Shown here in pieces: positions 10,635-27,484 of a DNA stretch of 64,000 bases. This DNA comes from a virus. Within the stretch, counting starts at the first letter, position 1. Each line of letters starts with the position of its first letter. Both the position numbers and the translations under genes were made by a program. The stretch is from IMG/VR virus record IMGVR_UViG_3300032579_000009, positions 31,184-95,183 of that record; one strand, written 5' to 3'. The notes under the pieces were generated by a model. That model ran no database searches. It saw only the letters and a program-made list of their open reading frames with translations, and was not told the origin of the DNA.

Positions 10635-11078
10635 ATGAAACAAGTATATGTAAATTCGTTAGATATCCCACAAATTCACAGATTTGCTGTGGGCTTTGAC
10701 CGTATGTTTGATGAACTTGCTCGTACAGCAGGTACATTAAACTCAAGTAACTATCCACCATACAACATCGTTCGTGTTGCTGAGAACGAGTATGAAATTG
10801 AAGTAGCAGTCGCTGGCTTTGCAGAAGACGAACTAGATGTTGAAATGCAAAATGGTGAACTGTTTGTGCGTGGTGAATCAAAAGCCACTGACACACGTGT
10901 GGGCAACTACTTACATCAAGGCATTGCTGCACGTGACTTTACACGCACGTTTGCTCTTGCAGACAACGTTGAAGTCAAAGGTGCTAGTGTTAAAAACGGC
11001 ATCTTAACAATCAAATTGGAAGTGTTTGTTCCTGAACACGAAAAGCCAAAAAAGATTGCAATTACCTTTCAGAAGTAG
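10635..11078 (+). CDS. Small heat-shock protein Hsp20 (IbpA type)
   Basis: 147 residues. The alpha-crystallin domain spans about residues 35-135: YNIVRVAENEYEIEVAVAGF, then DELDVEMQNGELFVRGE and a final strand GILTIKLEVFVPE. The C-terminal EHEKPKKIAITFQK resembles IbpA tails. Acts as an ATP-independent holdase that passes aggregating clients to DnaK, whose gene is next door. Hsp20 genes are common in T4-like aquatic phages. Confidence 0.92.
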   Translation: MKQVYVNSLDIPQIHRFAVGFDRMFDELARTAGTLNSSNYPPYNIVRVAENEYEIEVAVAGFAEDELDVEMQNGELFVRGESKATDTRVGNYLHQGIAARDFTRTFALADNVEVKGASVKNGILTIKLEVFVPEHEKPKKIAITFQK

Positions 11079-11093
11079 TATAATTAATAGTAA

Positions 11094-11113
11094 GGGGTAA
11101 GGAAACTTACCCC
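11094..11113 (+). other. Intergenic hairpin between hsp20 and clpS
   Basis: GGGGTAAG-GAAA-CTTACCCC, a perfect eight-base-pair stem with a GNRA loop. No U-tract follows, so it is more likely an RNA stability or processing element than a terminator. Confidence 0.6.
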
Positions 11114-11156
11114 GCTATTCAACTAAAAAATTATGTCAATTATAGAAAAGGAACAT

Positions 11157-11465
11157 ATGGGTACCAAAGCTGTCACAAGGACAAAGCCTGTCCCTAACTT
11201 TGATTTGCAAGAACCTCCAATGTATCGTGTGATCTACATTAATGATAATGTAACTACCATGGAGTTTGTTGTGGAAACATTGGTAACTATATTCAATCAT
11301 ACACCAGAATCAGCAGAAGCAGTTACAATGAAGATCCATGAAGAAGGATCAGGTATTGCCGCTGTACTACCATATGAAATGGCAGAACAAAAAGGTGTAG
11401 AAGTAACGCAACTGGCCCGTAACAACGGATTTCCACTGCAAGTTAAACTAGAACCAGACGCATGA
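11157..11465 (+). CDS. clpS: ClpS, adaptor of the N-end rule for Clp protease
   Basis: About 102 residues from the ATG at 11157, chosen because GAAAAGGAAC lies just upstream; an in-frame ATG at 11133 lacks such a site. The core YRVIYINDNVTTMEFVVETL, then HEEGSGIAAVLPYEMAEQKG and FPLQVKLEPD match ClpS, including the Asn-Asp of the N-degron pocket region. In bacteria ClpS delivers N-degron substrates to ClpA-ClpP. A ClpP homologue is encoded at 46586. No ClpA is visible here, so host ClpA would be the partner. Confidence 0.93.
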   Translation: MGTKAVTRTKPVPNFDLQEPPMYRVIYINDNVTTMEFVVETLVTIFNHTPESAEAVTMKIHEEGSGIAAVLPYEMAEQKGVEVTQLARNNGFPLQVKLEPDA

Positions 11466-11950
11466 TTTTCAACAAGATTAAAGAACTCAAAGCTGAAGGT
11501 AAGCGCATAGGTATCACCTTTAGTACCTTTGACATGCTACATGCTGGCCATATAGCCATGTTAAGTGAAGCTAAAAACCACTGTGATTACCTAATATGTG
11601 GATTACAAACAGATCCAACTATTGATCGTCCTGACACTAAGAACAAACCTGTTCAAAGTATTGTTGAACGTCAAATTCAATTGGCCGCTTGTCGTTATGT
11701 AGATGAAGTTGTTATCTACCAAACAGAACAAGACCTAATTGACTTGCTGTTAATCCTACCACTTGATGTGCGTATTTTAGGTGAAGAATATCAACATACT
11801 GATTTTACTGGTAAAGAAGAATGTCTATATCGTGGCATTGAATTAATTTACAATAAACGTGATCATTCATTTAGTAGTTCAAGTTTACGTAAACGTGTAG
11901 CACATGCCGAAACTGAAAAATTATTGAAGGCTAAACATGAAACTAAGTGA
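11462..11950 (+). CDS. Cytidylyltransferase-like nucleotidyltransferase
   Basis: 162 residues. ITFSTFDMLHAGHIAML (about 18-34) is the HxGH signature of the class I nucleotidyltransferase fold, and FSSSSLRKRV (~143-152) fits the closing ISSTxIR motif. Such enzymes (glycerol-3-phosphate cytidylyltransferase, RfaE C-domain) activate a phosphorylated small molecule with CTP or ATP. The substrate cannot be told. The start overlaps clpS by four bases, so they form one operon. Confidence 0.8.
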   Translation: MIFNKIKELKAEGKRIGITFSTFDMLHAGHIAMLSEAKNHCDYLICGLQTDPTIDRPDTKNKPVQSIVERQIQLAACRYVDEVVIYQTEQDLIDLLLILPLDVRILGEEYQHTDFTGKEECLYRGIELIYNKRDHSFSSSSLRKRVAHAETEKLLKAKHETK

Positions 11951-12122
11951 AGATACAAAATTTTTTATCCTACTATTTGTTGTTATTGCATCAATGGTCA
12001 TGGCATTTTTTCCACCTAAACCAGAAGTAACAGTGTTCTATGACTGCCGCATAGCTGAGATTAGTCCAGATGTGCCACCCAAGGTCAAAGAAGAATGTCG
12101 TAAGAAAATGGAGAAACACTAA
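11937..12122 (+). CDS. Small single-pass membrane protein
   Basis: 61 residues with one hydrophobic segment (FFILLFVVIASMVMAFF, residues ~9-25) and a charged tail with two Cys. Overlaps the preceding gene by 14 bases and shares one base with the next start. Function unknown. Confidence 0.6.
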   Translation: MKLSEDTKFFILLFVVIASMVMAFFPPKPEVTVFYDCRIAEISPDVPPKVKEECRKKMEKH

Positions 12123-12655
12123 TGGATGTGATGTTAGACTTAGAAACGCTAAGTGTGCGTCCTGATGCTACAATTTGTACATTTGGTGCTTGTAAATTTA
12201 GTCCTTATAACCAAGAAGACATTGTAGACGGTATCTACTTCCGCATTGACATTGACAGTCAAATTGCTCTAGGACGACATGTAGATGACAATACTATTGC
12301 TTGGTGGGGTAATCAAGCAGAAGATGTCCGTGAAGAAGCTCTGGGTGAAGGTGATAGAGTCAGCTTAGAAAAGTTTACGCAAGAACTAAACAGATTTATT
12401 GTAGGTTGTGATAATATCTGGGCACAAGGTCCAGTATTTGACATTGTTATTTTAGAAAACCTATATCGCCAAATGGGCTTACCATGCCCATGGCAGTTCT
12501 GGCAGATCCGTGATAGTCGTACCTTGTTAAGTAGCCTAGGTGACCCACGTGAAAAGAACAAAGCAGGCCTACACAATGCCTTAGAAGATGCAGTAAGTCA
12601 AGCACAGGCTGTGCAGTACGTGTTTAAACAAGCAGGTATTACGGAGAAGCGTTAA
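12122..12655 (+). CDS. DEDD-family 3'-5' exonuclease
   Basis: 177 residues. MDVMLDLETLSVRPDATI carries the DxE motif I, IWAQGPVFDIVILENLYRQ the motif II Asp, and HNALEDAVSQAQAV the HxxxD motif III, defining a DEDDh-type exonuclease of the kind encoded by T4 dexA and small exoribonucleases. Whether it acts on DNA or RNA is unclear. Tightly packed (TAATG overlaps) between small genes. Confidence 0.85.
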   Translation: MDVMLDLETLSVRPDATICTFGACKFSPYNQEDIVDGIYFRIDIDSQIALGRHVDDNTIAWWGNQAEDVREEALGEGDRVSLEKFTQELNRFIVGCDNIWAQGPVFDIVILENLYRQMGLPCPWQFWQIRDSRTLLSSLGDPREKNKAGLHNALEDAVSQAQAVQYVFKQAGITEKR

Positions 12656-12975
12656 TGCAGATTATATTTGGGCGTGAAAACGCAGAAAAACTCAGAGAAA
12701 AGTACACAGTACTTGATCTAGAAACAGTAGAAAAAGATGGACACAGTCTAGAAGTATTTTGTCTAATTCCTGGTGATAAAATTGGTCTAGGTGATTTACC
12801 ACAGTTAGAAAGCTGGGTTAAACTACATCACGATTTCCTTAATGGGTATTCTAAACAAGAATATGACTACTGCCTACAATGCATTGAACATCTTCGCGGC
12901 AAGTTTGGCGGAGAAGTAGACACATTCTACGATGAAATTCTTCGTCGTATCAACGAAAAAGACGTCAAAGTTTAA
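12655..12975 (+). CDS. Hypothetical protein
   Basis: 106 residues, mixed charge, no recognised domain. Contains EVFCLIPGDKIGLGDLPQL and a C-terminal helix-rich part. Start overlaps the exonuclease stop. Many such small proteins occur next to exonucleases in T4-like genomes. Confidence 0.6.
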   Translation: MQIIFGRENAEKLREKYTVLDLETVEKDGHSLEVFCLIPGDKIGLGDLPQLESWVKLHHDFLNGYSKQEYDYCLQCIEHLRGKFGGEVDTFYDEILRRINEKDVKV

Positions 12976-13049
12976 TCTAGATTAAGATTAAAGTACTATA
13001 AAACTTCACCCTAGGGTTCTAGTAAATATTAATACTAGGAGCCTAGACA

Positions 13050-13502
13050 GTGAAAAAAATAATAATAACAATCACTTTCTTAGCGGCATCAACTGCGACG
13101 GCCGCACCTCTGCCTGACTATACATTCAAAAGCCCAAGCTTCAATGGCAATGGTTACGGCACTTATGTCTTAACCATACAGAACGAAGAGTTTACTCGCA
13201 AGCAGGCAATTGAGCAGGCCTTACAAGCAGCACAGCAACAGGCCAAAACAGATGCAGCTAATACTCCTATTAACCAGTTCCTAGTAAACTTAGAATCACG
13301 TGTGCTAGCACAGGTAAGTCAAAACCTAGCTACTGCTATGTTTGCTCCTGGTGCAGCCACTAGCGGAACATTTAATTTCCAAGGTAATACAATATTTTGG
13401 CATAACCTAGGGAATTCTGTAGAATTACAAGTAACGGATAACTTGGGGAATGTAACCACGATCAATGTACCACTAGGATCATTTACATTTACACAACCAT
13501 AA
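13050..13502 (+). CDS. csgF: Curli assembly protein CsgF homologue
   Basis: 150 residues from GTG, preceded by ACTAGGAGCC. A signal peptide (MKKIIITITFLAASTATAA) precedes DYTFKSPSFNGNGYGTYVL, which corresponds to the conserved CsgF N-terminus (FRNPNFGGN in E. coli) that inserts into the CsgG pore. The C-terminal part GNSVELQVTDNLGNVTTINV also matches CsgF. CsgF sits at the cell surface, couples the CsgG channel to nucleation of the fibre. First gene of a six-gene operon; csgG follows after one base. Confidence 0.88.
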   Translation: MKKIIITITFLAASTATAAPLPDYTFKSPSFNGNGYGTYVLTIQNEEFTRKQAIEQALQAAQQQAKTDAANTPINQFLVNLESRVLAQVSQNLATAMFAPGAATSGTFNFQGNTIFWHNLGNSVELQVTDNLGNVTTINVPLGSFTFTQP

Positions 13503-13503
13503 T

Positions 13504-14535
13504 ATGAAAAGAATAATAACAATATTAGCTATATTATCGTTGACTGGCTGTGCCACTATACAGAAAGCTGGATATGAGTCTAAACCAGAAACAGTGGGTA
13601 TTAAACTACAAAAAGAGTTTGATACTATACCAGCACCAATGGGCAAGCCTATTACTGTGGCTGTGTATAGTTTTAAAGATCAAACTGGGCAACGCCGTAA
13701 TATACCAAACATTGCTAGTTTTAGTACTGCGGTAACACAGGGTGCTGAGCCGTTTTTAATACGTGCCTTACAGGAAGTAGGACACGGACAATGGTTTGAT
13801 GTAGTAGAACGTGTTAACGTGGACAACCTAGTTAAAGAGCGTACTATTATCAAACAGATGCGCGATGCCTACGAAGGCACTAATGCTAAACCACTAATGC
13901 CCTTACAGTTTGCTGGTGTTATTATGGAAGGTGGTATTATTGGTTATGATAGCAGTATAGAAAGCGGTGGTACAGCTTATAAATGGTTGGGCATTGGTCC
14001 ACAGACACAGTACAGTAAAGATGTAGTTACAGTTAGTTTGCGAGCAATATCAGTTAACTCTGGTAAAGTTCTAGCCACAGTAACAGAAAGTAAAACAATT
14101 TATTCAACAGCTGATAGTATTGCTGTGCTTAAGTTCTTTAAAGGTGGCACACAATCATTTGAATTTGAAACAGGCTTGACTATAAACGAGCCAACAAGTT
14201 TAGCGGTGAAAACTACAATTGAAGCCGCAGTAGTAGAGTTGATCAAAGAAGGTCAACGTAAAGGAATTTGGGACTATAGAACTAATGCTCCACAGGCATT
14301 ACCTGTAGTACCAAGTACTCCTGTAGCACAACCTCCAGAGCCAGCGGTGGTAACACAACCAATAGCTAAAGAGGAACCAATTGAGGCCAAGGCGGTGGAA
14401 GAGCCAACAGCACCAGTGGAAGTAAAACAGGAAACTAAGAAACCACAGGTAAAAAAGAAAACTAATAAACTAATGCCAGTGGTGGATAACGGACCTAAAG
14501 TGTCCAAGGAGCAGATAGATGTTAAATTACATTAA
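13504..14535 (+). CDS. csgG: Curli secretion pore CsgG homologue
   Basis: 343 residues. A lipoprotein signal ends in LTGC (Cys16). The body follows CsgG in order: PAPMGKPITVAVYSFKDQTGQ, SFSTAVTQGAEPFLIRAL, WFDVVERVNVDNLVKER, GVIMEGGIIGYDSS, GIGPQTQYSKDVVTVSLRA and a final KGIWDYR. E. coli CsgG is 277 residues; the extra ~65 residues here form a Pro/Lys/Glu-rich tail. CsgG makes a nonameric outer-membrane channel exporting unfolded curlin. The operon supplies its partner CsgF and candidate substrates. No CsgE-like specificity factor is seen. Confidence 0.93.
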   Translation: MKRIITILAILSLTGCATIQKAGYESKPETVGIKLQKEFDTIPAPMGKPITVAVYSFKDQTGQRRNIPNIASFSTAVTQGAEPFLIRALQEVGHGQWFDVVERVNVDNLVKERTIIKQMRDAYEGTNAKPLMPLQFAGVIMEGGIIGYDSSIESGGTAYKWLGIGPQTQYSKDVVTVSLRAISVNSGKVLATVTESKTIYSTADSIAVLKFFKGGTQSFEFETGLTINEPTSLAVKTTIEAAVVELIKEGQRKGIWDYRTNAPQALPVVPSTPVAQPPEPAVVTQPIAKEEPIEAKAVEEPTAPVEVKQETKKPQVKKKTNKLMPVVDNGPKVSKEQIDVKLH

Positions 14536-15349
14536 AAGTTTATTCGCAGTGTTATTACTTACTACAAGTGTGGCCTATGCTGACAACAACATCTATATTG
14601 ATCAAAGCGGTGACTCTAACACTATCACAGTAACACAAGGTGATGGTAGTGGCAGCACAGGCAGTGACAATATTGGTGGTACAGGCAGCGGCAGTGCCGG
14701 CACAGGTAATCGTGCTAAAATTTACGGTAACAACAATGTTGTCAACGTAGATCAAGCTGGTACAAGTGATACCTTAAAATTGAATATCAATAACAATGCT
14801 ACAAGTGGCTTTACATCAGAAACACGCAATGGTAATACATATAACAAAACATTCAATTATAGCGTAACTGGTGACAGTTCAACTGGTGTTATTAATATTA
14901 CAGGTACACCTAGTGGCGGTGCAGCAACAGCCAGCTCAGGCAACCTAGTTAATATTAATCAAAGCGGTAACAGTGCTGGAGTTACTTTAAGTATTACAGG
15001 TAGCACCAACGACGTTACAGCATTAACCAGTGGTGGTAGTAGCAATACACTTACTTCAACAATCACAGGTAGTGGAAATAGTCAAGGTATCAGCCTAACA
15101 GGTGGCGGTAGCAACGCAGCAACACTAACACAAACTGGTGGTAGCAATATTATCAATTTGACCAGTGTTGGCGCAAGCAATACCTACACAGTTAGTCAAA
15201 CGGGCACAGGTCACGATGCTGAATTGAGTTTCAATGGTAGTAGCAATACAGTTGCAGTTACACAGCAAGGTAGTACAGGTGTAAGCAACGTTAATGTTAC
15301 TTCAGTAGGCAGCAGTAACTCAATCACTATCAACACCAACGCTCACTAA
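14519..15349 (+). CDS. Secreted curlin-repeat (CsgA/CsgB-like) amyloid protein 1
   Basis: 276 residues; start lies within the end of csgG. Signal peptide (FAVLLLTTSVAYA) then repeated strand-turn units of the curlin type: NIYIDQSGDSNTITVTQGDG, LVNINQSGNSAGVTLSI, AATLTQTGGSNIINL, TYTVSQTGTG. The alternating Gln/Asn/Ser/Gly pattern matches the curlin repeats that stack into a cross-beta solenoid. Likely the major subunit or nucleator exported through the CsgG above. Glycine/serine-rich linkers separate the repeats, more than in E. coli CsgA. Confidence 0.85.
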   Translation: MLNYIKSLFAVLLLTTSVAYADNNIYIDQSGDSNTITVTQGDGSGSTGSDNIGGTGSGSAGTGNRAKIYGNNNVVNVDQAGTSDTLKLNINNNATSGFTSETRNGNTYNKTFNYSVTGDSSTGVINITGTPSGGAATASSGNLVNINQSGNSAGVTLSITGSTNDVTALTSGGSSNTLTSTITGSGNSQGISLTGGGSNAATLTQTGGSNIINLTSVGASNTYTVSQTGTGHDAELSFNGSSNTVAVTQQGSTGVSNVNVTSVGSSNSITINTNAH

Positions 15350-15361
15350 GCGGGGTGTAAA

Positions 15362-16177
15362 ATGCGAGCATGGATATGGGCAGCAGTCTTATTTGTTACG
15401 ACTCTGCCCTCTTTTGCTGGCGACAACCAAGCATATATTGATCAATCTGGTCAATTCTCAGATATTTACGTATTACAAGATGGAGTAGGCAATGGCCTAT
15501 ATGGTATAGGCGGCCCTGCTATTCCCACAAATACAGCTACCATTCATGGTAATGGTAATGTAGTAACCATACAACAAACAGGCTCCAACGATCAACTACA
15601 GTTGAACATGGAAACTTCCAGTATGCCACGTCCGATGACCAATGTTAGTTGTCCTACATGCCCACAACCTGTACAAGGCAACAGTTGGAGTTATAACATT
15701 AATGGTAACAATGCCAAAGCGGTTATAGATGTCAACGCAGATGGCAAGAATACTTCAGTGAGTAATGGCATGGATGTGTCACAGATAGGTGATAATGCCG
15801 TATACAATGGGCGTTTTATTGGCGACCATAACTCAGTGACTGTATCAACTACAGGACTTAACCAAACAGTTAATACAAGCGTAAGCGGTAGTACTAATAC
15901 ACAGACTACCAGTGCCGCTAATGGTAGTTACAATATTGTCACGGTAACACAATCTGGCACAAATGGCACGGCGCAGACTAACTTAAATGGTACTGCTAAT
16001 ATAGTCACAGTAAATCAAACAGATGGCGCTGCAAATGGACATCGCACAAACCTAGACATTAGTGGTAATAGTAATACCATTGCTGTTAATCAAAGTAGTC
16101 TAGTAGCAGATAGTAATATAAATCTTAAAACCACTGGCAGTAATAATGTTATCAACATAACGAGTATGTCAAGATGA
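15362..16177 (+). CDS. Secreted curlin-repeat amyloid protein 2
   Basis: 271 residues, starts after GCGGGGTGTAAA. Signal peptide (WAAVLFVTTLPSFAG), then NQAYIDQSGQFSDIYVLQDG and further repeats such as VVTIQQTGSNDQLQL, IVTVTQSGTNGTAQTN, TIAVNQSSLVADSN. A VSCPTCPQP insertion has two cysteines that could form a disulphide. Second curlin subunit; which of the proteins nucleates and which polymerises is not clear from sequence. Confidence 0.82.
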   Translation: MRAWIWAAVLFVTTLPSFAGDNQAYIDQSGQFSDIYVLQDGVGNGLYGIGGPAIPTNTATIHGNGNVVTIQQTGSNDQLQLNMETSSMPRPMTNVSCPTCPQPVQGNSWSYNINGNNAKAVIDVNADGKNTSVSNGMDVSQIGDNAVYNGRFIGDHNSVTVSTTGLNQTVNTSVSGSTNTQTTSAANGSYNIVTVTQSGTNGTAQTNLNGTANIVTVNQTDGAANGHRTNLDISGNSNTIAVNQSSLVADSNINLKTTGSNNVINITSMSR

Positions 16178-17298
16178 AGCAACTACTAATCTTGTTACTT
16201 GTCCCTTTACTAGCCAATGCCGCAGTGGGTACTATCACAGAACAAACAGCCCTGCCTGGTACTATTACTCGTAGTTTTACTGCCATGGAAGGTAAGAAAG
16301 GTGCTGGCATTGAAATGAATGACAAGGTACAGACTACTAAAGGTAAGATTGGCATTACATTCCAAGACGATACTAAAGTAGAAGTTAATGAAAGTAGTAA
16401 GTTAGTCATTGATGATTTTGTATTTGATCCTAAAAAGCCCAGTGCCGGCAAACTGGCTATGAAGTTTACACAGGGCACAGTTCGTTACGCATCAGGTGCT
16501 ATTGCGCACAGTAACCCTAACAAAGTAGCACTAAACACGCCTAGCGCGACCATAGCAGTGCGTGGTACAGACTTTACGGCTACAGTAGATGAAATGGGCG
16601 AAAGTACTGTTATTCTACTGCCAAGTTGTCCTAAAGGTTGGGCAGATATAGACAGAGATTGTAAAACAGGTGCCATTGACGTTATTAACGATGCTGGTAT
16701 GGTTAGTCTTAATGTAGCCTTTCAAGGCACTAAGGTAGCCAGTCGTACTACAATGCCAATGAAACCAACAGTATTAAACTTGTCACCTGATACGATTAAC
16801 AACCTGCTGATCGTTAGTCCGCCCAAAGAACTACGCAAGGAAGGAATAGAAACTAAAAACATATCAACTAAAAATCCTGCTGATATGTTAAATGTAGACT
16901 TTCTTAAACAAGATTATTTAAAAAATGAGTTTGAAAAAGAAGGCACACCCTTTGGAGATAACCCATTGGCACACCCACTATTAGAACAATACTTCCTTGA
17001 AAACATTTTTGACATCTTGGCACAACAGCTACAAGAAGAACAAGCTGGACTACTAGCTAACTTGATAGCACCAAGTCAAACTAATAACATACTGCCAGAC
17101 TATAAAAAGTCTACAGGTGTTACTGAAAGTATTGGCGCAAGTGAAGTTACCTTATGCCGTAGTGATGGCAGTAACAATCAATGTATTAGTACTCCTAAAG
17201 ATCAAAATAGTCTACTAGTAGAAACACAGGGCGCAGTTACTATTAAAAACCGTGTCAATCAAGGTGCGGGCAGTACTATAACGGTGATACAACGATGA
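16174..17298 (+). CDS. Exported FecR-domain protein in the curli operon
   Basis: 374 residues with signal peptide (QLLILLLVPLLANAA). Residues ~30-160 form a FecR-like domain: GAGIEMNDKVQTTKGKIGITFQD, VEVNESSKLVIDDFVFDP, ATIAVRGTDFTATVDEMGE. A CPKGWADIDRDC loop carries two cysteines. The last ~50 residues (VETQGAVTIKNRVNQGAGSTITVIQR) look like a curlin unit. FecR domains in secreted proteins bind glycans or partner proteins; here it may link fibres to the envelope or matrix, which is inference. Overlaps both neighbours by four bases. Confidence 0.8.
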   Translation: MKQLLILLLVPLLANAAVGTITEQTALPGTITRSFTAMEGKKGAGIEMNDKVQTTKGKIGITFQDDTKVEVNESSKLVIDDFVFDPKKPSAGKLAMKFTQGTVRYASGAIAHSNPNKVALNTPSATIAVRGTDFTATVDEMGESTVILLPSCPKGWADIDRDCKTGAIDVINDAGMVSLNVAFQGTKVASRTTMPMKPTVLNLSPDTINNLLIVSPPKELRKEGIETKNISTKNPADMLNVDFLKQDYLKNEFEKEGTPFGDNPLAHPLLEQYFLENIFDILAQQLQEEQAGLLANLIAPSQTNNILPDYKKSTGVTESIGASEVTLCRSDGSNNQCISTPKDQNSLLVETQGAVTIKNRVNQGAGSTITVIQR

Positions 17299-18770
17299 AA
17301 AAGTTACTGTTAATCTTATTACTTGTATGTTCTAGTGCATGGGCTGACGTTACCCAAGAACATTTTAGCTTCGCACAGGTATTTGATGTACAGTGGTATA
17401 CCAGCAACGGCAAATTATATGCCAGCAGTTTCAATTATTTGTATGCCAGTGTCAACGCAAGTGGCCAATTACAAGCGGGCAGACTAACATCTACACAAAC
17501 TAATGCCTATGCATCAGCTGGTGATTATTTGGCTTTTTTTCATAGCTCAACTAATCCTGGAACCTTTGGACTTGGAGTATATGACACTAACAATAATCTA
17601 GTTCGTGTGTTGGACTACACAGGGACCTTTGTGGCTCTGGCAGATGGTGCTATATTCTATAATGGTAATGGCAGTTGGGGTACATTGTTCACTACAGCAC
17701 AGGGATATAGTTATGGGCAAGGTGGATCTTGGACTATCACACAGAGTTATCCTAGTAATACCTACATGACTAATTATACTCCGCCTAACACTACTCCCTT
17801 AGCGGCAGGACAGTCGGCGCCACCTGCTGTTACTATAACCAGCAGAGTAAACTCAACAATTACCACAACAGCTACAAGTGGAGCGACGGTCTATACCTAC
17901 AGTCAACCTATTACCACTACAACCTATAGTGATGGCTCTCAGACTGTGGTTAACAATGGCAGTGCAGTACTATTAAGCACAACTACTGTGGGTGGGGGCA
18001 GTGGTATTACCAATGCTGAACAAACATCAATGAACATTTCTCGTAATCAGCAGGTCAACTTGCCCACACCCAGCCACGTCTATATAGATCAAATTGGCAG
18101 TGGTGATCATATTAATATCACAGTAAACAATCAGTCTAACCTAATAGGTGGACAAGATCAAACTGCTATGAAAGTTCGTGGCGGCAATAACACAGTTACT
18201 ATACATCAGGGCGACCCTACTAATACATTAAGCACACATAACGTCATAGCCGCAGACCTACTAGGGGGAAGCAATAGTCTAACAGTTAATCAAGGCACAG
18301 ACGCAAACGGTAACGGTAGTGGCACAGACTCTGGATATCATTATAGTAGCATATATGTTAGTGGAGTTAACAATTCAGTTAACGTTCAACAGCAGGCCAC
18401 AGTTAATAATAACGTAGGCAACTATGCCAGCATCAATGTCACAGGCAATCAGAATAACATAGGTCTAATACAAACTGGTAACTCACCTAAACAGTTATTC
18501 ACCGCAGTCTCAGGCAATCAAAATACAGAAACAATTAGTCAAACTGGACTTGGGCAGCATTTTCTAGATGTTAATCTAAATGGAGATGGTAACACTGCTA
18601 CAGTAAATCAGTCAGGCAATACAGCCAACACAGCAACCATCAACCTAACCAATGCTGGTGGCCCCGCTAGTGTAAATCTAACACAAACAGGCGGACAAAG
18701 TTATGGTATAAGTCAAACCTGCGTACAAGCAGGAGGCTGCGGTACTGTGACTGTACGTCAAGGACCGTAA
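17295..18770 (+). CDS. Large secreted curlin-repeat protein 3
   Basis: 491 residues with signal peptide (KLLLILLLVCSSAWAD). Residues ~20-165 form a non-repetitive N-terminal domain (YASSFNYLYASVNASGQL), ~170-235 a Thr/Ser-rich linker, and ~250-491 curlin repeats (VYIDQIGSGDHINITVNNQ, IGLIQTGNSPKQLF, TATVNQSGNTANTATINL). The last residues hold a CVQAGGC pair. The extra N-terminal domain suggests an adhesive or capping role on the amyloid fibre. Last gene of the operon. Confidence 0.82.
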   Translation: MKKLLLILLLVCSSAWADVTQEHFSFAQVFDVQWYTSNGKLYASSFNYLYASVNASGQLQAGRLTSTQTNAYASAGDYLAFFHSSTNPGTFGLGVYDTNNNLVRVLDYTGTFVALADGAIFYNGNGSWGTLFTTAQGYSYGQGGSWTITQSYPSNTYMTNYTPPNTTPLAAGQSAPPAVTITSRVNSTITTTATSGATVYTYSQPITTTTYSDGSQTVVNNGSAVLLSTTTVGGGSGITNAEQTSMNISRNQQVNLPTPSHVYIDQIGSGDHINITVNNQSNLIGGQDQTAMKVRGGNNTVTIHQGDPTNTLSTHNVIAADLLGGSNSLTVNQGTDANGNGSGTDSGYHYSSIYVSGVNNSVNVQQQATVNNNVGNYASINVTGNQNNIGLIQTGNSPKQLFTAVSGNQNTETISQTGLGQHFLDVNLNGDGNTATVNQSGNTANTATINLTNAGGPASVNLTQTGGQSYGISQTCVQAGGCGTVTVRQGP

Positions 18771-21740: not shown

Positions 21741-21814
21741 CTCAGTGTGGTGTAGAGATAACATGCGTGGTTTGGGACCATGTGTCGAAGGTTTGATTCC
21801 TTCCACTGAGACCA
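21741..21814 (+). tRNA. tRNA-Pro (TGG)
   Basis: Acceptor CTCAGTG/CACTGAG, anticodon stem CGTGG/CCATG with loop TTTGGGA, T stem GAAGG/CCTTC, encoded CCA. Confidence 0.88.
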
Positions 21815-21820
21815 TTTAGC

Positions 21821-21904
21821 GGGTGATGAGCAGCATTGGCGACTGCAGCAGACTGTAAATCTGTGTCCTCTGGAAACTAGGTTCGACTCCTAGATCACCC
21901 ACCA
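21821..21904 (+). tRNA. tRNA-Tyr (GTA)
   Basis: Acceptor GGGTGAT/ATCACCC, loop CTGTAAA, long variable arm as expected for bacterial Tyr, encoded CCA. Confidence 0.92.
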
Positions 21905-21910
21905 AGTTAT

Positions 21911-22005
21911 GTCGCAGTTCCAGTTACATTAATCTCTCAGTTCAAAGCTGTTAGTGTGCAAAGGACACGAGAAAGTCAACTTCTTCTGGGTAGACTGTGA
22001 CGCCA
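21911..22005 (+). ncRNA. tRNA-like RNA with 3' GCCA but no canonical tRNA body
   Basis: This 95-base element occupies a tRNA slot: six bases after tRNA-Tyr and seven before tRNA-Lys. Its ends form a full seven-pair acceptor-type stem (GTCGCAG/CTGTGAC) followed by G-CCA. Inside, TCCAG/CTGGG extends the stem, and hairpins CAG-TTCAAAG-CTG (a T-loop-like sequence) and GTGT-GCAAAGG-ACAC follow. No anticodon arm with U33 or T arm in the normal position exists. It may be a novel tRNA-like RNA or a scrambled tRNA remnant. Confidence 0.5.
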
Positions 22006-22012
22006 AAATTTA

Positions 22013-22086
22013 GGGTCGTTAATTCAATGGGAGAATAGCTGGCTTTTAACCAGTCTACGACGGATCGTAACCGTCACGACTCACCA
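22013..22086 (+). tRNA. tRNA-Lys (TTT)
   Basis: Acceptor GGGTCGT/ACGACTC, anticodon loop CTTTTAA, T stem GACGG/CCGTC with loop ATCGTAA, encoded CCA. Confidence 0.9.
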
Positions 22087-22133
22087 AGTATTTTATAGAT
22101 AGAGCTAAATAATAGTAATAAGGAGCTCTACCT

Positions 22134-22544
22134 ATGAAGTATTTTAATTGTTTATGTTGCGGAAAAGAAAATATCATTAAAGGCTATAGTTATACAGGAA
22201 AATATTGTAATAACAAATGTCAAGCAACACATCGCACAGCTAAATGGTTTGAAGATAATAAATTATTGTTTGAACAAGGTTTACTTAAGCATAGATCAGC
22301 AATTAAAAAGTTTGTTAAATTAAGAGATGGTGAAATGTGTTCTATTTGCGGACAATCGCCAGAATATAATAACAAGCCGTTAGTTATGATTATAGATCAT
22401 ATTGATGGTGACGCAAGTAATAATATGCCGGATAATTTTAGATTAGTGTGTCCAAATTGCGACTCGCAGTTAGATACATATAAAGCACGAAATATAGGAA
22501 ATGGTCGTGCTACTAAAGGTATGAAATGGTATAGTAGTTTATAA
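22134..22544 (+). CDS. HNH homing-type endonuclease
   Basis: 136 residues. Two zinc-type Cys pairs at the N-terminus (CLCCGKENI) and in CSICGQSPE / CPNC frame an HNH nuclease: MIIDHIDGDASNNMPDNFRLVC carries the His-Asn-His elements. Preceded by AATAAGGAGCTC. Sits between tRNA-Lys and tRNA-Asp, ending two bases before the latter, as a free-standing mobile endonuclease; two further endonuclease genes lie in the same cluster. Confidence 0.88.
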   Translation: MKYFNCLCCGKENIIKGYSYTGKYCNNKCQATHRTAKWFEDNKLLFEQGLLKHRSAIKKFVKLRDGEMCSICGQSPEYNNKPLVMIIDHIDGDASNNMPDNFRLVCPNCDSQLDTYKARNIGNGRATKGMKWYSSL

Positions 22545-22546
22545 AT

Positions 22547-22622
22547 GCGGTATTAGCTCAATCGGGAGAGCACGGCACTGTCACTGCCGAGGTAAGGGGA
22601 TCGAAACCCCTATATCGCGCCA
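22547..22622 (+). tRNA. tRNA-Asp (GTC)
   Basis: Acceptor GCGGTAT/ATATCGC, anticodon CGGCA-CTGTCAC-TGCCG, discriminator G, encoded CCA. Confidence 0.93.
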
Positions 22623-22630
22623 AATAATTG

Positions 22631-22659
22631 TTGACAGCATTGTCTGTTAGCTATATAAT
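22631..22659 (+). promoter_or_regulatory. Consensus promoter for tRNAs (TTGACA-N17-TATAAT)
   Basis: Perfect hexamers and spacing, ending 16 bases before tRNA-Glu. Confidence 0.88.
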
Positions 22660-22675
22660 GTTTATTAGAGTCATT

Positions 22676-22751
22676 GCTCCCATCGTCTAGAGGCCTAGGA
22701 CACCCGCCTTTCACGCAGGTAACACGAGTTCGAATCTCGTTGGGAGTACCA
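22676..22751 (+). tRNA. tRNA-Glu (TTC), copy 1
   Basis: Acceptor GCTCCCA/TGGGAGT, loop CTTTCAC, encoded CCA. The anticodon stem CCCGC/GCAGG has one C-A mismatch that the second Glu copy at 28902 lacks. Confidence 0.85.
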
Positions 22752-22764
22752 GTTTTAAAGTTAC

Positions 22765-22839
22765 GGGCTGTTGGTATACTTGGGAACACACCTGCCTTGC
22801 ACGCAGGAGTACGGGGTTCGACTCCCCGACGGTCCACCA
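22765..22839 (+). tRNA. tRNA-Ala (TGC)
   Basis: Acceptor GGGCTGT/ACGGTCC with G-T pairs, anticodon CCTGC-CTTGCAC-GCAGG, T arm CGGGG/CCCCG, encoded CCA. Confidence 0.9.
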
Positions 22840-22847
22840 AATTAATT

Positions 22848-22922
22848 GCGCGGTTAGCTCAGCGGGAGAGCAGGGCCCTTACAAGGCCAAGGTCGAAAGT
22901 TCAATCCTTTCACTGCGCACCA
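22848..22922 (+). tRNA. tRNA-Val (TAC)
   Basis: Acceptor GCGCGGT/ACTGCGC, D arm GCTC/GAGC, anticodon loop CTTACAA, encoded CCA. Confidence 0.92.
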
Positions 22923-22945
22923 AGTTAGTAGTAGTAAAGTTTTAT

Positions 22946-23021
22946 TCCGGTCAAGCAAACACGGTGTAGGCGGTGGACTGTTAATCCATGAAGGTTGGTT
23001 CGATTCCAACGACCGGAGCCA
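22946..23021 (+). tRNA. tRNA-Asn (GTT)
   Basis: Acceptor TCCGGTC/GACCGGA, anticodon GTGGA-CTGTTAA-TCCAT, discriminator G, encoded CCA. Confidence 0.92.
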
Positions 23022-23028
23022 TTTTTAT

Positions 23029-23102
23029 AGTCTGTTAGTTCAATGGGAGAACAGTCGACTGATAATCGACAAACACTGGATCGTAACCAGTACGGACTAC
23101 CA
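23029..23102 (+). tRNA. tRNA-Ile (GAT)
   Basis: Acceptor AGTCTGT/ACGGACT, anticodon GTCGA-CTGATAA-TCGAC, T stem ACTGG/CCAGT, encoded CCA. Confidence 0.92.
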
Positions 23103-23295
23103 AGTATTCCAACCACATCGCGTTTAGGGTGAAGTAGGGCGTGCCAATAAAACCCTGTAAGATCAAAAATACCTACCAAGCAAGGAGGAATCACAGCGCA
23201 AGCTGAAGAACAATGTGGTGACTTGCTACCCGGGAGAAAGCTGTAACATTACGTATTCGAGGTTAGGAGAGTACAGCAAACCGCCCACTTATTTT
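23103..23295 (+). other. Gene-free, probably structured RNA stretch within the tRNA cluster
   Basis: No open frame. Ends can pair: TCCAACC (23108-23114) with GGTTAGGA (23261-23268), one bulge. Inside is a CAGC-GCAA-GCTG tetraloop hairpin and a GCAAG/CTTGC pairing. Not recognisable as tRNA, RNase P RNA or an intron; possibly a co-transcribed uncharacterised RNA. Confidence 0.35.
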
Positions 23296-23385
23296 GGAAG
23301 CGTGGCAGAGCCTGGCTGATTGCACCTGTCTTGAAAACAGACAAGGGGAAACCCTTCGTGAGTTCGAATCTCACCGCTTCCGCCA
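23296..23385 (+). tRNA. tRNA-Ser (TGA)
   Basis: Acceptor GGAAGCG/CGCTTCC, loop CTTGAAA, long variable arm, discriminator G, encoded CCA. Confidence 0.93.
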
Positions 23386-23396
23386 AATATTTTTAT

Positions 23397-23488
23397 CCTT
23401 CTGTAGTTCAATGGTAGAACGGCTCCCTTATAAGGAGTGAGTGCTAGATAAGCCGCTAATGGGGGTTCGAGTCCCTCCAGAAGGACCA
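23397..23488 (+). tRNA. tRNA with anticodon TAT and a long variable arm
   Basis: Acceptor CCTTCTG/CAGAAGG, D stem GTTC/GAAC, anticodon GCTCC-CTTATAA-GGAGT, T stem GGGGG/CCCTC, A73, encoded CCA. The anticodon UAU predicts Ile (AUA codon), but the 22-base variable region is of the Leu/Ser/Tyr class, which is unusual. Confidence 0.75.
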
Positions 23489-23490
23489 AT

Positions 23491-23564
23491 GCTCTTATAG
23501 TTAAGTGGCATAACGCATCCATGGTAAGGATGTATTCCAAGTTCGATTCTTGGTGAGAGCACCA
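23491..23564 (+). tRNA. tRNA-Thr (GGT)
   Basis: Acceptor GCTCTTA/TGAGAGC, anticodon CATCC-ATGGTAA-GGATG, encoded CCA; two bases after the previous tRNA. Confidence 0.9.
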
Positions 23565-23576
23565 AAAAAGTTTAAT

Positions 23577-23650
23577 TGGCTCATGGTGTAGTGGTAGCAC
23601 AACAGGTTTTGATCCTGTTAGTCCTAGTTCGATTCTAGGTGGGCCTGCCA
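23577..23650 (+). tRNA. tRNA-Gln (TTG)
   Basis: Anticodon ACAGG-TTTTGAT-CCTGT, acceptor TGGCTCA/TGGGCCT with an unpaired first position, discriminator G, encoded CCA. A weak first pair is typical of Gln tRNA. Confidence 0.88.
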
Positions 23651-23834
23651 AATAAATAAAGAACAGTCCGGAGCATGCGAGTCCTACGATAAGTAGGAGA
23701 AAACTCCACTTATAGCTGGAATTTACCAGTGAACCCTATGGACGCATAGGGCTACGGGCATCCTGGGGGACAACTCCAACCTAATTAAAATGGTAGCACA
23801 GCAGTTTTGTATAAATAATATAGTGGAGATAAAA
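23651..23834 (+). other. Gene-free region with two strong hairpins
   Basis: Contains CCTAC/GTAGG and CCCTATG/CATAGGG hairpins and a distal GTCC/GGAC pairing; no open frame or tRNA found. Possibly a structured RNA. A TATAAATA motif (23810-23817) near its end serves the next gene. Confidence 0.4.
23810..23817 (+). promoter_or_regulatory. T4-late-type motif TATAAATA
   Basis: Exact octamer 17 bases before the GIY-YIG gene start; T4 homing endonuclease genes are often under late promoters. Confidence 0.45.
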
Positions 23835-24437
23835 ATGTTCTATATTATATACAAGACTACAAATTTAATCGATAATAAAATTTATGTCGGATCGCACCAA
23901 ACTAAAGAGTTGAATGACGATTACTTAGGGTCCGGAAAGTATCTTAAGCGTGCTATTTCTAAACACGGAAAGCAAAATTTTACTAAAGAGATTTTACATG
24001 TGTTTGACAATAAACAAGACATGTTTAATAAAGAACGCGAAATAGTAAATGAAGAATTTGTTAAGGATACAAATACATACAATTTCAAAATAGGCGGCTC
24101 GGGTGGTAATCCAGGCATTGTGGGTGCATTTTCTGGTAAAAAACATTCGCAAGAGTCGATTGAAAAAATAAGATTGTCTGCCCTTGCCCAAGGAACAACA
24201 GATGAAAAAAGAAGAAAATGTTCTGTTAATAATTGGGCAAAACAAGACCCAGACGCATTTAGAAAACACGCATCACGCATAAACAAAGATATCCCTAAAA
24301 CAGATACACATAGAAATGCGCTAGCAAAGGCACAGCTAGGACGAAAGATGATGAACAATGGTACAGTATCTAGTTTTATTAAAGCTGATGATATAAATGA
24401 ATATTTAGAAAAAGGGTGGACACTAGGCCACCATTAA
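23835..24437 (+). CDS. GIY-YIG homing endonuclease
   Basis: 200 residues from the ATG at 23835, which follows GTGGAG; an upstream ATG at 23790 lacks a ribosome-binding site. MFYIIYKTTNLIDNKIYVGS holds the GIY-YIG core (YIIYK...YVG), with a following catalytic region SGKYLKRAISKHGKQNF. The C-terminal half (FSGKKHSQESIEKIRLSALA) contains a NUMOD3-type DNA-binding motif. Free-standing mobile element within the tRNA cluster. Confidence 0.9.
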   Translation: MFYIIYKTTNLIDNKIYVGSHQTKELNDDYLGSGKYLKRAISKHGKQNFTKEILHVFDNKQDMFNKEREIVNEEFVKDTNTYNFKIGGSGGNPGIVGAFSGKKHSQESIEKIRLSALAQGTTDEKRRKCSVNNWAKQDPDAFRKHASRINKDIPKTDTHRNALAKAQLGRKMMNNGTVSSFIKADDINEYLEKGWTLGHH

Positions 24438-24445
24438 CAATCAAT

Positions 24446-24519
24446 TACCCCATAGTGTAACGGCAGCACGCGAAGCTCCAAACTTCTTAGTCGCGGTTCA
24501 AATCCGTGTGGGGTAGCCA
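24446..24519 (+). tRNA. tRNA-Trp (CCA)
   Basis: Acceptor TACCCCA/TGGGGTA, anticodon loop CTCCAAA, discriminator G, encoded CCA. Confidence 0.9.
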
Positions 24520-24526
24520 TTTTTAC

Positions 24527-24604
24527 GCAACGGTACCAGAGTGGCCTAATGGCGGGGACTGCAAATCCCTAAAGCCGCCGGTTCAAATCCGGCCCTGTGC
24601 TCCA
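24527..24604 (+). tRNA. tRNA-Cys (GCA)
   Basis: Anticodon GGGGA-CTGCAAA-TCCCT, T stem GCCGG/CCGGC, discriminator T as in bacterial Cys tRNA, encoded CCA. The acceptor stem has two mismatches, so function could be reduced. Confidence 0.8.
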
Positions 24605-24626
24605 AGAATAAATGTAAATATATACT

Positions 24627-25202
24627 ATGTTAACAATGGATTTTATTGACGGCTCATATCCAGATTTCATTCATCGATTAGATGATTTTTTGGAATTGGT
24701 CCCATCTGGGCATGCTAAATGTTCTAAGAATGATATACTATTTTTATATTCAATCATCTATTCTAAAAAACCAGAAAATGTATTAGAAATAGGCCGTAGT
24801 TATGGCACATCAACTTTGACTATATGTGGTGCTTTAACGGACAATAATAAAGGTAAATTATATTCAATTGATGTGGAAAACTTATTGCCAAAAGATATAG
24901 CAAATATAATTGATAAAAGAACTCAATTGATTACTAATTCAAGTGAATACCTATTAGATGAAATCAATGATGTTAAATTTGGTGTTACATTCATTGATGG
25001 CGATCATTCATACGAGATGGCCAAAAATGATATTATTAAATCCATGACACTATCAGAAGATGAAGCAATCATACTTTGTCATGATTCAGACATGTTAGGA
25101 GTACAACAGGCTATCAACGAAGTCTGTGGTATGTATCCAACTAGCTTATTAAATTGTGGAGTATTTGGAGAAAAGATCCAAATGCTCATAGTCCGTAAAT
25201 AA
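24627..25202 (+). CDS. Class I SAM-dependent methyltransferase
   Basis: 191 residues. NVLEIGRSYGTSTLTIC (about 51-67) is the SAM-binding motif I, IDVE (~83) the acidic loop, and VTFIDGDHSYEMAKNDI (~116-132) is the DGDHxY signature of the Methyltransf_24-type family. These modify small molecules or sugars, often alongside glycan synthesis. Lies alone between tRNA-Cys and tRNA-Met; substrate unknown. Confidence 0.82.
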   Translation: MLTMDFIDGSYPDFIHRLDDFLELVPSGHAKCSKNDILFLYSIIYSKKPENVLEIGRSYGTSTLTICGALTDNNKGKLYSIDVENLLPKDIANIIDKRTQLITNSSEYLLDEINDVKFGVTFIDGDHSYEMAKNDIIKSMTLSEDEAIILCHDSDMLGVQQAINEVCGMYPTSLLNCGVFGEKIQMLIVRK

Positions 25203-25210
25203 TCCAACAT

Positions 25211-25287
25211 AGCAATATAGCTCAGCTGGCCAGAGCAGATCCTTCATACGGATAAGGTCACTAGTTCGAATCTAGTTATTGCTACCA
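25211..25287 (+). tRNA. tRNA-Met (CAT), probably elongator
   Basis: Acceptor AGCAATA/TATTGCT fully paired, anticodon loop TTCATAC, T stem ACTAG/CTAGT, encoded CCA. A lysidine-modified Ile tRNA cannot be excluded. Confidence 0.85.
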
Positions 25288-25288
25288 T

Positions 25289-25366
25289 GCCTCCATAGCT
25301 CATTTGGATTAGAGCATTTGGCTACGAACCAAAAGGTGGGGAGTTCGAATCTCTCTGGGGGCTCCA
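25289..25366 (+). tRNA. tRNA-Arg (ACG)
   Basis: Acceptor GCCTCCA/TGGGGGC, anticodon TTTGG-CTACGAA-CCAAA, encoded CCA. Wobble A34 would need host TadA to become inosine. Confidence 0.9.
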
Positions 25367-25374
25367 GTTTTAAT

Positions 25375-25448
25375 GCAGGATTAGTTTAATGGTAAAACGA
25401 AACGTTGCCAACGTCTAGTCACGAGTTCGATTCTCGTATCCTGCTCCA
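25375..25448 (+). tRNA. tRNA-Gly (GCC)
   Basis: Acceptor GCAGGAT/ATCCTGC, loop TTGCCAA, discriminator T, encoded CCA. One mismatch in the anticodon stem. Confidence 0.88.
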
Positions 25449-25450
25449 AT

Positions 25451-25525
25451 GGTGTCTATAATGTAGCGGTAACATTCAGGATTGTGATTCCTGCATCACG
25501 GGTTCGAACCCCGTTAGACACCCCA
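25451..25525 (+). tRNA. tRNA-His (GTG)
   Basis: Anticodon CAGGA-TTGTGAT-TCCTG; extra G at -1 opposite C73, the His identity pair; encoded CCA. Confidence 0.93.
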
Positions 25526-25526
25526 C

Positions 25527-25555
25527 TTGACATTTTGATTAAATGACTGTATAAT
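25527..25555 (+). promoter_or_regulatory. Consensus promoter, leaderless start (TTGACA-N17-TATAAT-N6-ATG)
   Basis: Perfect hexamers and spacing; the ATG at 25562 begins six bases after TATAAT, at the expected transcription start. Confidence 0.88.
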
Positions 25556-25561
25556 ACACAT

Positions 25562-25726
25562 ATGAAAAATAAAAATACATACACCAAGTTCCAAGAAGCA
25601 GAAGATGCTGAAACAGCCTATGCTATGGTATTATCTGGGCAGTGGACTGTTGAACGATTTGCTGAATGGCACGATCAGGTCAAACATATTGAATATATGT
25701 ATGCCACAGCAGATGAGAGTTTCTGA
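25562..25726 (+). CDS. Small hypothetical protein, leaderless
   Basis: 54 residues (MKNKNTYTKFQEAEDAETAY...), acidic, no recognised domain. ATG lies where transcription from the perfect promoter upstream should begin. The next gene starts with GTG immediately after its stop. Confidence 0.65.
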   Translation: MKNKNTYTKFQEAEDAETAYAMVLSGQWTVERFAEWHDQVKHIEYMYATADESF

Positions 25727-25984
25727 GTGACTGAAGAACAACAATTAGCCTGGGATATATTAAGCACACCTGACAATGCGGACTTTAAAGAGTACCGCAG
25801 AATGCACTATGCAACATGGCTAACTAAAGAACGCAAGGTATTACTAATATCTGATATGGAAACAGGTTATATTATTAACTGTATTAACATGCTAGAAGCA
25901 TTAGGACAAGAAACTACTTTAGCCTACGCAGGCTTAATTGATGAACTAGGAAGGCGAGGGCATGAATATGAAAACCAAATTTGA
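25727..25984 (+). CDS. Hypothetical protein
   Basis: 85 residues from a GTG directly abutting the previous stop. Helical in character; contains RRMHYATWLTKERKVLLISDM. No known domain. Overlaps the next gene by 23 bases. Confidence 0.6.
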   Translation: MTEEQQLAWDILSTPDNADFKEYRRMHYATWLTKERKVLLISDMETGYIINCINMLEALGQETTLAYAGLIDELGRRGHEYENQI

Positions 25985-26315: not shown

Positions 26316-26499
26316 GCAACAACCAAGTTGGGTTGAGACACGAGAAGCTCTTCGTACACATGTTGAGGAGCCTCCTGTGTTTGTAGGAGAAATGGGCGTC
26401 GCAGGAGTTATAGATGGTCTATTACCCAACGGTGAACCATATGGTTGGTATAAACGTCGTGGTACTAAAGATACCAAGTTCAAAGGCAGGAAAGTTTAA
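26284..26499 (+). CDS. Hypothetical protein
   Basis: 71 residues. Contains VFVGEMGVAGVIDGLLPNGE and a basic end (YKRRGTKDTKFKGRKV). Starts within the preceding gene. Function unknown. Confidence 0.55.
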   Translation: MNMNQKTMTSKQQPSWVETREALRTHVEEPPVFVGEMGVAGVIDGLLPNGEPYGWYKRRGTKDTKFKGRKV

Positions 26500-26504
26500 A
26501 CTGA

Positions 26505-27482: not shown

Positions 27483-27484
27483 AT

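Follow-up and report, generated by a model that had tools for sequence, protein, structure and literature searches.

A phage curli operon as a probable export and display module with exchangeable CurC heads

We analyzed a 64,000-nucleotide stretch of viral DNA (the window; positions 31184-95183, G000:C1, of the 95,183-base virus record IMGVR_UViG_3300032579_000009, which may be a fragment) that carries a six-gene curli operon at 13050-18770. We propose, as the probable reading, that this operon encodes a type VIII (curli) machinery for export and display in which the N-terminal head of the protein CurC is most likely an adhesin, such that the infected cell sticks to its neighbors or to particles. 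Proposals in print for the role of phage curli are a lysis pore and nutrient uptake as well as sibling capture and superinfection defense. The operon as such is of a known kind; what is new is that its heads are exchangeable, that the head also occurs on autotransporters, and that the FecR protein has a curlin-like end. In related phages an autotransporter with the same head stands where others have the whole operon.

The operon and its three curlins

The genes run in the order csgF-csgG-curA-curB-fecR-curC, all on the + strand, with lengths in amino acids (aa):

13050-13502, + strand: csgF, CsgF homologue, 150 aa, GTG start; Pfam PF10614, 3.9e-14
13504-14535, + strand: csgG, CsgG homologue, lipoprotein pore, 343 aa; Pfam PF03783, 8.8e-44
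14519-15349, + strand: curA, curlin-repeat subunit, 276 aa; Pfam Curlin_rpt, 2.8e-8
15362-16177, + strand: curB, second curlin subunit, 271 aa; CurA paralogue
16174-17298, + strand: fecR, FecR-domain protein, 374 aa, signal sequence; Pfam FecR, 3.1e-8
17101-17295, + strand: FecR tail, residues 310-374; six predicted strands (model)
17295-18770, + strand: curC, 491 aa; head, linker, curlin solenoid and C-terminal Cys pair
17355-17828, + strand: CurC head ("W-head", residues 21-178); defined by profile, no Pfam or PDB sequence match
18072-18767, + strand: CurC curlin stalk, residues 260-491; predicted beta-solenoid, profile match to 8c50

Adjacent genes are separated by 1 nucleotide (nt; csgF/csgG) or 12 nt (curA/curB), or overlap by 17 nt (csgG/curA) or 4 nt (curB/fecR and fecR/curC), with no gap or overlap in the row above 17 nt. 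The tight, overlapping operon described in the first-pass annotation is thus recovered, its six open reading frames (ORFs) lying at these coordinates with spacing of at most 17 nt. The assignments of CsgF, CsgG, FecR and CurA are likewise borne out, all four Pfam values exceeding the curated cut-offs. Each of the six products begins with a signal sequence when read by eye, and the CsgG lipobox (LTGC), which had been reported together with signal peptides, was seen again in the same manner.

Three curlin substrates had also been claimed, and these are confirmed by a different route in each case. CurA matches Pfam Curlin_rpt; CurB is related to it by paralogy (34% identity over 285 columns); and for CurC a profile of 13 CurC-type proteins matches the solved curlin-repeat protein 8c50 (9.6e-8). 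Neither CurB nor CurC has a Pfam match, and the NCBIfam CsgB matches of CurA (1.5e-6) and CurB (0.0019) fall below the cut-off. The strict curlin motif, taken as the regular expression of PMC10192328 and compared with 500 shuffles per protein, occurs five times in CurA and four times in CurB (shuffle maximum 3 in both) and five times in CurC, where shuffles average 1.3 and some reach the observed count (maximum 6), so that the reported repeats stand out beyond all shuffles in CurA and CurB but not in CurC; the motif is absent from CsgF, CsgG and FecR. A looser motif of our own gave counts of 8, 7 and 8 for CurA, CurB and CurC, equalled in 0.1%, 0% and 0.3% of 1000 shuffles, respectively. Among 92 phage loci, two curlins lie between csgG and fecR only in the window's phage (L003, same sequence; L numbers denote loci), and the other 91 have a single one. 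We regard the third curlin subunit, as judged from sequence, as a lineage-specific paralogue among the loci compared.

CurC-type proteins, the second curlin of the operon, encoded after fecR, combine a conserved curlin stalk with differing N-terminal parts. The C-terminal curlin part of about 230 residues ends in a pair of cysteines; C476 and C482 are invariant in 13 relatives, and among 52 proteins C476 remains invariant and C482 is present in at least 90%. The CurC model contains regular strand pairs forming a beta-solenoid (residues 316-489; whole-model mean pLDDT, the predicted local distance difference test, 58.8), and its structure-alignment (VIA) rows mostly span residues 239-491 and indicate a generic beta-solenoid. 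The locus L009 has, at 12546-12986, an extra short curlin-like ORF after curC, without a Pfam match, that by eye resembles the headless CurC of L007.

Exchange of heads on a conserved stalk

The N-terminal parts include recognizable domains. Among 52 CurC-type proteins, Pfam identifies PA14 in 11, GLEYA in 4 and F5/8 type C in 3, and in the six proteins whose domain positions were read the domain precedes the curlin part (PA14 in L002, L020, L024 and L028; F5/8 type C in L027 and L186). In a bacterial adhesin, the PA14 domain binds sugars (PMC6650083). The head of the window's CurC, a domain of about 155 residues (21-178), matches nothing in Pfam and its profile has no PDB sequence match. No sugar-binding domain was recognized in the window's CurC by Pfam or by PDB sequence search, whereas relatives have PA14 or F5/8 type C. 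The CurC model gave no Foldseek match at E≤0.001, and its head part is of low confidence. By profile, 11 of the 53 CurC-type proteins contain the W-head, either by itself or combined with F5/8 type C or a further domain.

Heads were labelled with domain profiles, whose seeds match by construction (5 PA14, 5 W-head, 2 F5/8 type C and 2 of a fourth kind), in CurC-type ORFs of at least 150 aa (excluding L145, L165 and L179) that are not cut by a contig end (excluding L015 and L150). "No head" means fewer than 70 residues before the last 225, and some proteins labelled "other" (L001, L192) are long curlins. An earlier clustering of heads by blastp was replaced, the Ser/Thr linker having chained most heads together. 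On a CsgG tree of the 53 phage loci, head type changes 26 times (minimum 8, shuffled mean 34.1), or 27 times when three bacteria are added as a further state, the tree being of the "quick" type with long branches flagged and the changes including those to and from "none" and "other". PA14 alone changes 9 times, at least 7 of them forced by well-supported branches (shuffled mean 11.8, with as low a value in 13 of 500 shuffles), and W-only heads change 7 times against a shuffled mean of 7.6, with no excess clustering. Hence, on this tree, the heads appear to change often relative to the secretion pore, but not freely.

The same head on autotransporters

A search with the W-head profile yielded 59 IMG/VR loci, including contigs from our earlier collections, and the fetched stretches contained CsgF, CsgG or FecR in 51 cases and none of them in 8. 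In five of these eight (L222, L223, L227, L246 and L250) the head opens a large secreted protein that lacks a curlin part and has phenylalanine as its final residue. The L250 protein combines a signal sequence with the W-head, F5/8 type C and an autotransporter barrel detected by Pfam (3.7e-9). Over 352 columns its residues 1-346 share 59% identity with the curlin protein of L339, which carries the same pair of heads. Similarly, the autotransporter head of L311 and the curlin-protein head of L027 are 61% identical over 172 columns. Pfam Autotransporter exceeds its cut-off in 7 of 18 records (L250, L286, L310, L311, L315, L323 and L337), with no such match in L222, L223, L227, L246, L341 or the window's record. 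The proteins of L286, L315 and L323 have a head of another kind than the W-head.

The genes directly upstream of csgF served as a marker of the locus:

10635-12975, + strand: upstream block, synteny marker; heat-shock-like and ClpS-like ORFs, cytidylyltransferase, ORF61, Rv2179c-like exonuclease and ORF106

The cytidylyltransferase and the exonuclease were identified in a Pfam scan, and the small heat-shock-like and ClpS-like ORFs are presumed to be such. L250 retains the window's upstream genes in order, with identities of 58, 59, 84, 61 and 47%. Among 25 loci with the upstream block, the block leads into curli genes in 17, into an autotransporter without curli in 4 (L250, L286, L310 and L311) and into neither in 4 (L296, L301, L355 and L358), where the ORF106 query favors close relatives of the window; L250 came from the head search and is not an unbiased draw, and the tally without it is 17, 3 and 4 of 24. 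Two of the 17 curli loci (L315 and L323) carry both curli and an autotransporter, and in three (L257, L353 and L354) the only visible curli gene is a csgF truncated by the contig end. The 25 loci, which include the window's phage, are what remains of 33 rows once 2 that lacked room (L306, L317) and 6 repeats are taken out: L335, L351 and L357 are identical contigs to L250, L255 and L257, L352 is the same phage as L255, and for L330 and L359 the equal gene spacing was taken to mean that they repeat L329 and L358. Near-identical phages were otherwise kept, and L334 lacks ORF106. Where relatives have curli genes, L296 (12157-15603) and L310 (10477-13163) have three ORFs (153-161, 529 or 809, and 177-210 aa), of which the first and second appear by eye to carry signal sequences; this set is possibly a third surface system.

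The autotransporter barrel functions in the outer membrane of the cell, and because of this the head is cell-surface cargo in the autotransporter phages. The presence of the head on autotransporters therefore argues against a virion fibre, and also against a role of CsgG chiefly as a pore. That the phage particles contain the curlin proteins as virion fibres is in our view scarcely credible: 3 of 52 CurC-type proteins do hit a PHROG that bears the name tail protein (3.6e-6 at best), and exchangeable heads are typical of receptor-binding proteins, but all of the proteins carry export signals by eye, an outer-membrane pore gene adjoins them, and the same head fused to autotransporter barrels is placed on the cell.

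The FecR protein and its curlin-like end

Of the 116 viral loci surveyed (33 from a CsgG query, the best 80 of at least 200 from a FecR query, two phage records and the window), 110 contain FecR and 108 contain both FecR and CsgG, some contigs being counted twice. CsgG is present in the locus for 92 of 94 unique full FecR proteins. A survey of the operon across phages had been proposed in the first-pass annotation. Operons of this kind are already known, curlins, FecR and adenylate cyclase having been published for pelagiphages (PMC9599517). The bacterial FecR search is likewise a sample, the best 80 of 153 loci, and CsgG is also present in 6 of these 80, 3 of which resemble phage contigs by eye; a further listing used in the analysis comprised the best 80 of at least 597 loci. 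Two Caulobacteraceae metagenome-assembled genomes (MAGs; L038 and L040) and Hyphomonas TMED17 (L042) have csgF-csgG-curlin(s)-fecR followed by what is by eye a cyclase-sized ORF, and this gene order suggests that FecR came along from bacteria. PMC9599517 states that the phage modules resemble alphaproteobacterial ones but places FecR and the cyclase outside the curli operons of bacteria. Four loci filed under Flavobacteriaceae, Rhodobacteraceae or Pirellulales MAGs (L036, L037, L039 and L041) are phage-like in gene content by eye and are likely mis-binned.

All 20 members of the FecR alignment match the FecR family in Pfam. In the FecR model (mean pLDDT 65.4; tail about 63-84), residues 47-213 align with the periplasmic signalling domain of PupR, 6ovk (Z 14.6, root-mean-square deviation 2.7, 135 aligned), and residues 15-112 with the cell-surface anchoring domain 5ix9 (Z 9.6), which we take to derive from an RTX/Lap-type adhesin. 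Foldseek gave no match to the model at E≤0.001 (best 6ovk, 1.3e-3), and the structure rows of the tail are weak Ig-type matches alone (Z about 3). A terminal strand of the type G..N-x-hydrophobic-x-hydrophobic-x-Q ends 83 of 94 unique phage FecR proteins, compared with a mean of 15.6 and a maximum of 26 of 94 when the last 30 residues are shuffled. This strict pattern also occurs in 119 of 986 other ORFs, those listed including many curlins and some unrelated ORFs. A pattern widened after viewing the 11 exceptions, and carrying no shuffle control of its own, covers 93 of 94. Across the 94 proteins, the final 65 residues contain 164 strand motifs in total (shuffled mean 36.5, maximum 53). In profile comparison by hhalign, the FecR tail matches the CurC stalk with E 3.9e-5 and probability 70.5, the best of 40 column-shuffled controls reaching 0.16 and no reversed or other control doing better than 0.0043. 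The two Caulobacteraceae FecR proteins also have this tail end, and that of Hyphomonas L042 lacks the terminal Q strand. We infer that the FecR protein is an anchor or a nucleator. The proposal that it is an iron-dependent regulator of the module (PMC9599517) would be compatible with any other reading and accords with the PupR-type fold of residues 47-213, but we consider it unlikely: a signal sequence, seen by eye, replaces the cytoplasmic part, FecR is the sole Pfam match of the protein at E up to 1, leaving no match to the N-terminal anti-sigma domain that FecR transmembrane sensors combine with a single membrane helix, no FecI-type sigma factor was found by Pfam among the ten proteins scanned, and the tail is curlin-like.

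The pore, CsgF and the accessory proteins

CsgG matches PDB 6lqh across residues 1-279 (phmmer, 8.6e-47), with Ile and Ser aligned to Tyr51 and Asn55 of the E. coli protein. A comparison of the CsgG constriction by regular expression was dropped, as it missed 64 of 105 CsgG sequences. E. coli CsgF (6l7a) is a weak match to a CsgF profile built from 20 relatives (E 0.0074 for the sequence, 0.46 for the best stretch), the single CsgF sequence having found no CsgF in the PDB. Within this weak overall match the CsgF N-terminus aligns with the pore-binding segment of E. coli CsgF, and the window's protein has Tyr, Phe and Phe at three positions where phenylalanines matter in E. coli (PMC6957492).

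Neither CsgE nor CsgC was found in 17 phage records (the window's 95,183-base record and 16 chosen ones, which may be fragments), the E. coli controls being positive for both, and the first-pass statement that the two are absent is upheld for the window's record. PMC9599517 likewise reports CsgE missing from phage operons, and E. coli without CsgE regains lost curli secretion when CsgG is over-expressed (PMC6957492). The first-pass description of a complete amyloid system is thus sustained as to a curli-type export operon, and its completeness without CsgE and CsgC would be inference only. The lack of CsgE in 17 of 17 records, by which the pore may be ungated, would suit the proposal that CsgG and CsgF form a gated channel that depolarizes the cell and times lysis, as put forward for Melnitz (PMC9004378), yet we consider this very unlikely given that curlin and fecR genes are kept (where CsgG and a full FecR occur together, 91 of 92 loci have one intervening curlin, and the window has two) and that the locus can carry an autotransporter without curli genes. 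To an uptake pore for large nutrients (PMC7029224, PMC9599517) we give almost no credence; CsgG is a pore and FecR domains do occur in iron signalling, but the curlins and heads would be unexplained, and in the FecR protein a signal sequence is present while an anti-sigma domain match is lacking.

Proposed mechanism and the evidence against it

We propose that CsgG would form an outer-membrane pore in the infected cell with CsgF sitting in the pore neck, and that CurA and CurB would be exported unfolded and polymerize as amyloid. The FecR protein, its last strand being curlin-like, could serve as the base or nucleator in the place of CsgB, and CurC would co-polymerize via its solenoid so that the N-terminal head is displayed outside. 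The head would be the exchangeable business end, most likely an adhesin, and the infected cell would adhere to neighbors or particles near which the progeny is released. More tentatively, and as a possibility that we would not yet favor, the locus as a whole may be an adhesin cassette that decorates the infected cell, in which curli and autotransporter are interchangeable, the heads are probably glycan-binding, FecR is an anchor or nucleator replacing CsgB, and the cell rather than the virion is made adhesive.

Several observations weigh against the proposed mechanism. Cultures infected with Melnitz did not clump (PMC9004378), though the CurC of Melnitz consists of curlin from its first residues onward. 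Of the 53 CurC-type proteins, 16 are headless and 11 have no assigned head, and the head labels are still clustered on the CsgG tree (0 of 200 shuffles as low). Binding by the window's head is suggested by the company that the head keeps, in lieu of a Pfam or PDB match. A folded head could not pass the narrow CsgG pore, so CurC would have to stay unfolded in the periplasm, and amyloid formation through CsgG is predicted. CsgE was not found, though it enhances secretion in E. coli. The FecR tail hardly matches CurA-type proteins (E 0.0032, probability 9.9), Pfam Curlin_rpt matches 0 of 20 FecR proteins at E 0.1, the window's FecR protein as a whole has no excess of curlin motifs, and the tight turn between two strands in the tail model could belong to a hairpin just as readily as to a curlin arch.

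The first-pass annotation had suggested that an amyloid coat might block superinfection, hold cells together or trap virions. Holding cells together or trapping fits the heads and the autotransporter swap, and for a superinfection block we find nothing specific. PMC7029224 described the phage cluster and suggested sibling capture, and PMC9599517 lists superinfection defense, sibling capture and uptake as options. Superinfection exclusion, in which a coat of amyloid would keep other phages off the infected cell, has a rather low probability in our view. The display machinery is consistent with such a coat and the heads could mask receptors, but such a shield has no need of exchangeable lectin-type heads, and the replacement by an autotransporter would be unexplained. 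If the replacement of the operon by an autotransporter with the same head holds, then head display on the cell would be a selected function, testable with single proteins, and phages would manage host-cell adhesion during infection, which would affect aggregation, particle attachment and encounter rates in water.

Gene neighborhood

The first-pass description of the operon included neither the CurC head domain nor the cyclase gene downstream:

29997-32021, + strand: CHASE2 and adenylate/guanylate cyclase, 674 aa; Pfam CHASE2, 2.5e-38, and Guanylate_cyc, 1e-17

In the window's phage the cyclase sits 11 kb downstream of the operon, past a tRNA region (21741-29773; 28 tRNA genes with ORFs interspersed). 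By pattern, a cyclase-like ORF directly follows the operon in many relatives, and a cyclase is present in 8 of 9 records searched. PMC9599517 puts a "histidine kinase" before csgF in phage operons; there is no such match in the two genes directly upstream of csgF in the window, which was not searched for one as a whole. Pairs of small membrane-type ORFs without a Pfam match lie directly 5' of csgF in several phages (L002:6841-7403, L014:7027-7589), and there is no such pair at that place in the window. The csgF leader (12976-13049) is AT-rich, has by eye an inverted repeat beside the ribosome site, and aligns closely only with that of L008 and partly with that of L009. A T4-type late promoter, for which we assume the consensus TATAAATA, was considered for the operon and rejected, csgF having only CTATAAAA about 54 nt upstream. 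Exact copies of TATAAATA occur at five sites on the + strand, one of which precedes a listed gene (6171).

Two genes after the cyclase lies a D-alanyl-D-alanine carboxypeptidase (33159-33929; Peptidase_S11, 2.1e-39), and carboxypeptidase-like ORFs were also seen by eye near the locus in L018, L296, L301, L311 and L355. A transfer-messenger RNA (tmRNA) gene (51042-51393) matches both the permuted and the betaproteobacterial tmRNA families, a match that may hint at a betaproteobacterial host lineage. The window also encodes a phage GroEL-type chaperonin (53679-55298; PHROG 5725, 1e-179) and a 1292-aa virion protein (57930-61808), the core structural gene examined for a T4-like (Kyanoviridae) affiliation; 107 phage records gave matches to it, Synechococcus phages and cyanophages making up most of them.

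Comparison with known systems

Further papers reportedly mention curli in marine phages. In the consulted passages of PMC9599517, PMC7029224 and PMC9004378 the CurC heads, the FecR tail and the autotransporter swap do not appear, and none of the three is indicated in the titles or abstract openings listed for phage curli and curlins, a listing without most subscription journals. The closest published modules are those of HTVC008M and Melnitz, both csgF-csgG-curlin-fecR-curlin-cyclase, with fecR and the second curlin of HTVC008M annotated as hypothetical. They share with the window the gene order, the cyclase and the lack of a detected CsgE or CsgC, whereas the window has two curlins before fecR, another CurC head and a cyclase 11 kb away. 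The bacterial loci L038, L040 and L042 resemble the window in having csgF-csgG-curlin(s)-fecR, with two curlins before fecR in L038 and L040, and then an ORF of 688-691 aa that is cyclase-like by eye; in contrast to the window, no second curlin was seen after fecR in the three loci, and their CsgG stands apart from phage CsgG on the tree.

With the curli system of E. coli (CsgA-G) the window has in common the CsgG pore, CsgF and the curlin repeats, and it differs in the lack of a detected CsgE or CsgC and of a clear CsgB, in the FecR protein, and in the cysteine pair and head of CurC. The window's curlins are presumably also longer than E. coli CsgA and CsgB. The RTX/Lap-type adhesins, such as MhLap, are single giant proteins that carry a PA14 domain and are secreted by a type I system (PMC6650083). 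In the window's group PA14 heads and the anchoring-domain fold, which we take to be shared with such adhesins, occur on separate proteins, and export would be of the curli type.

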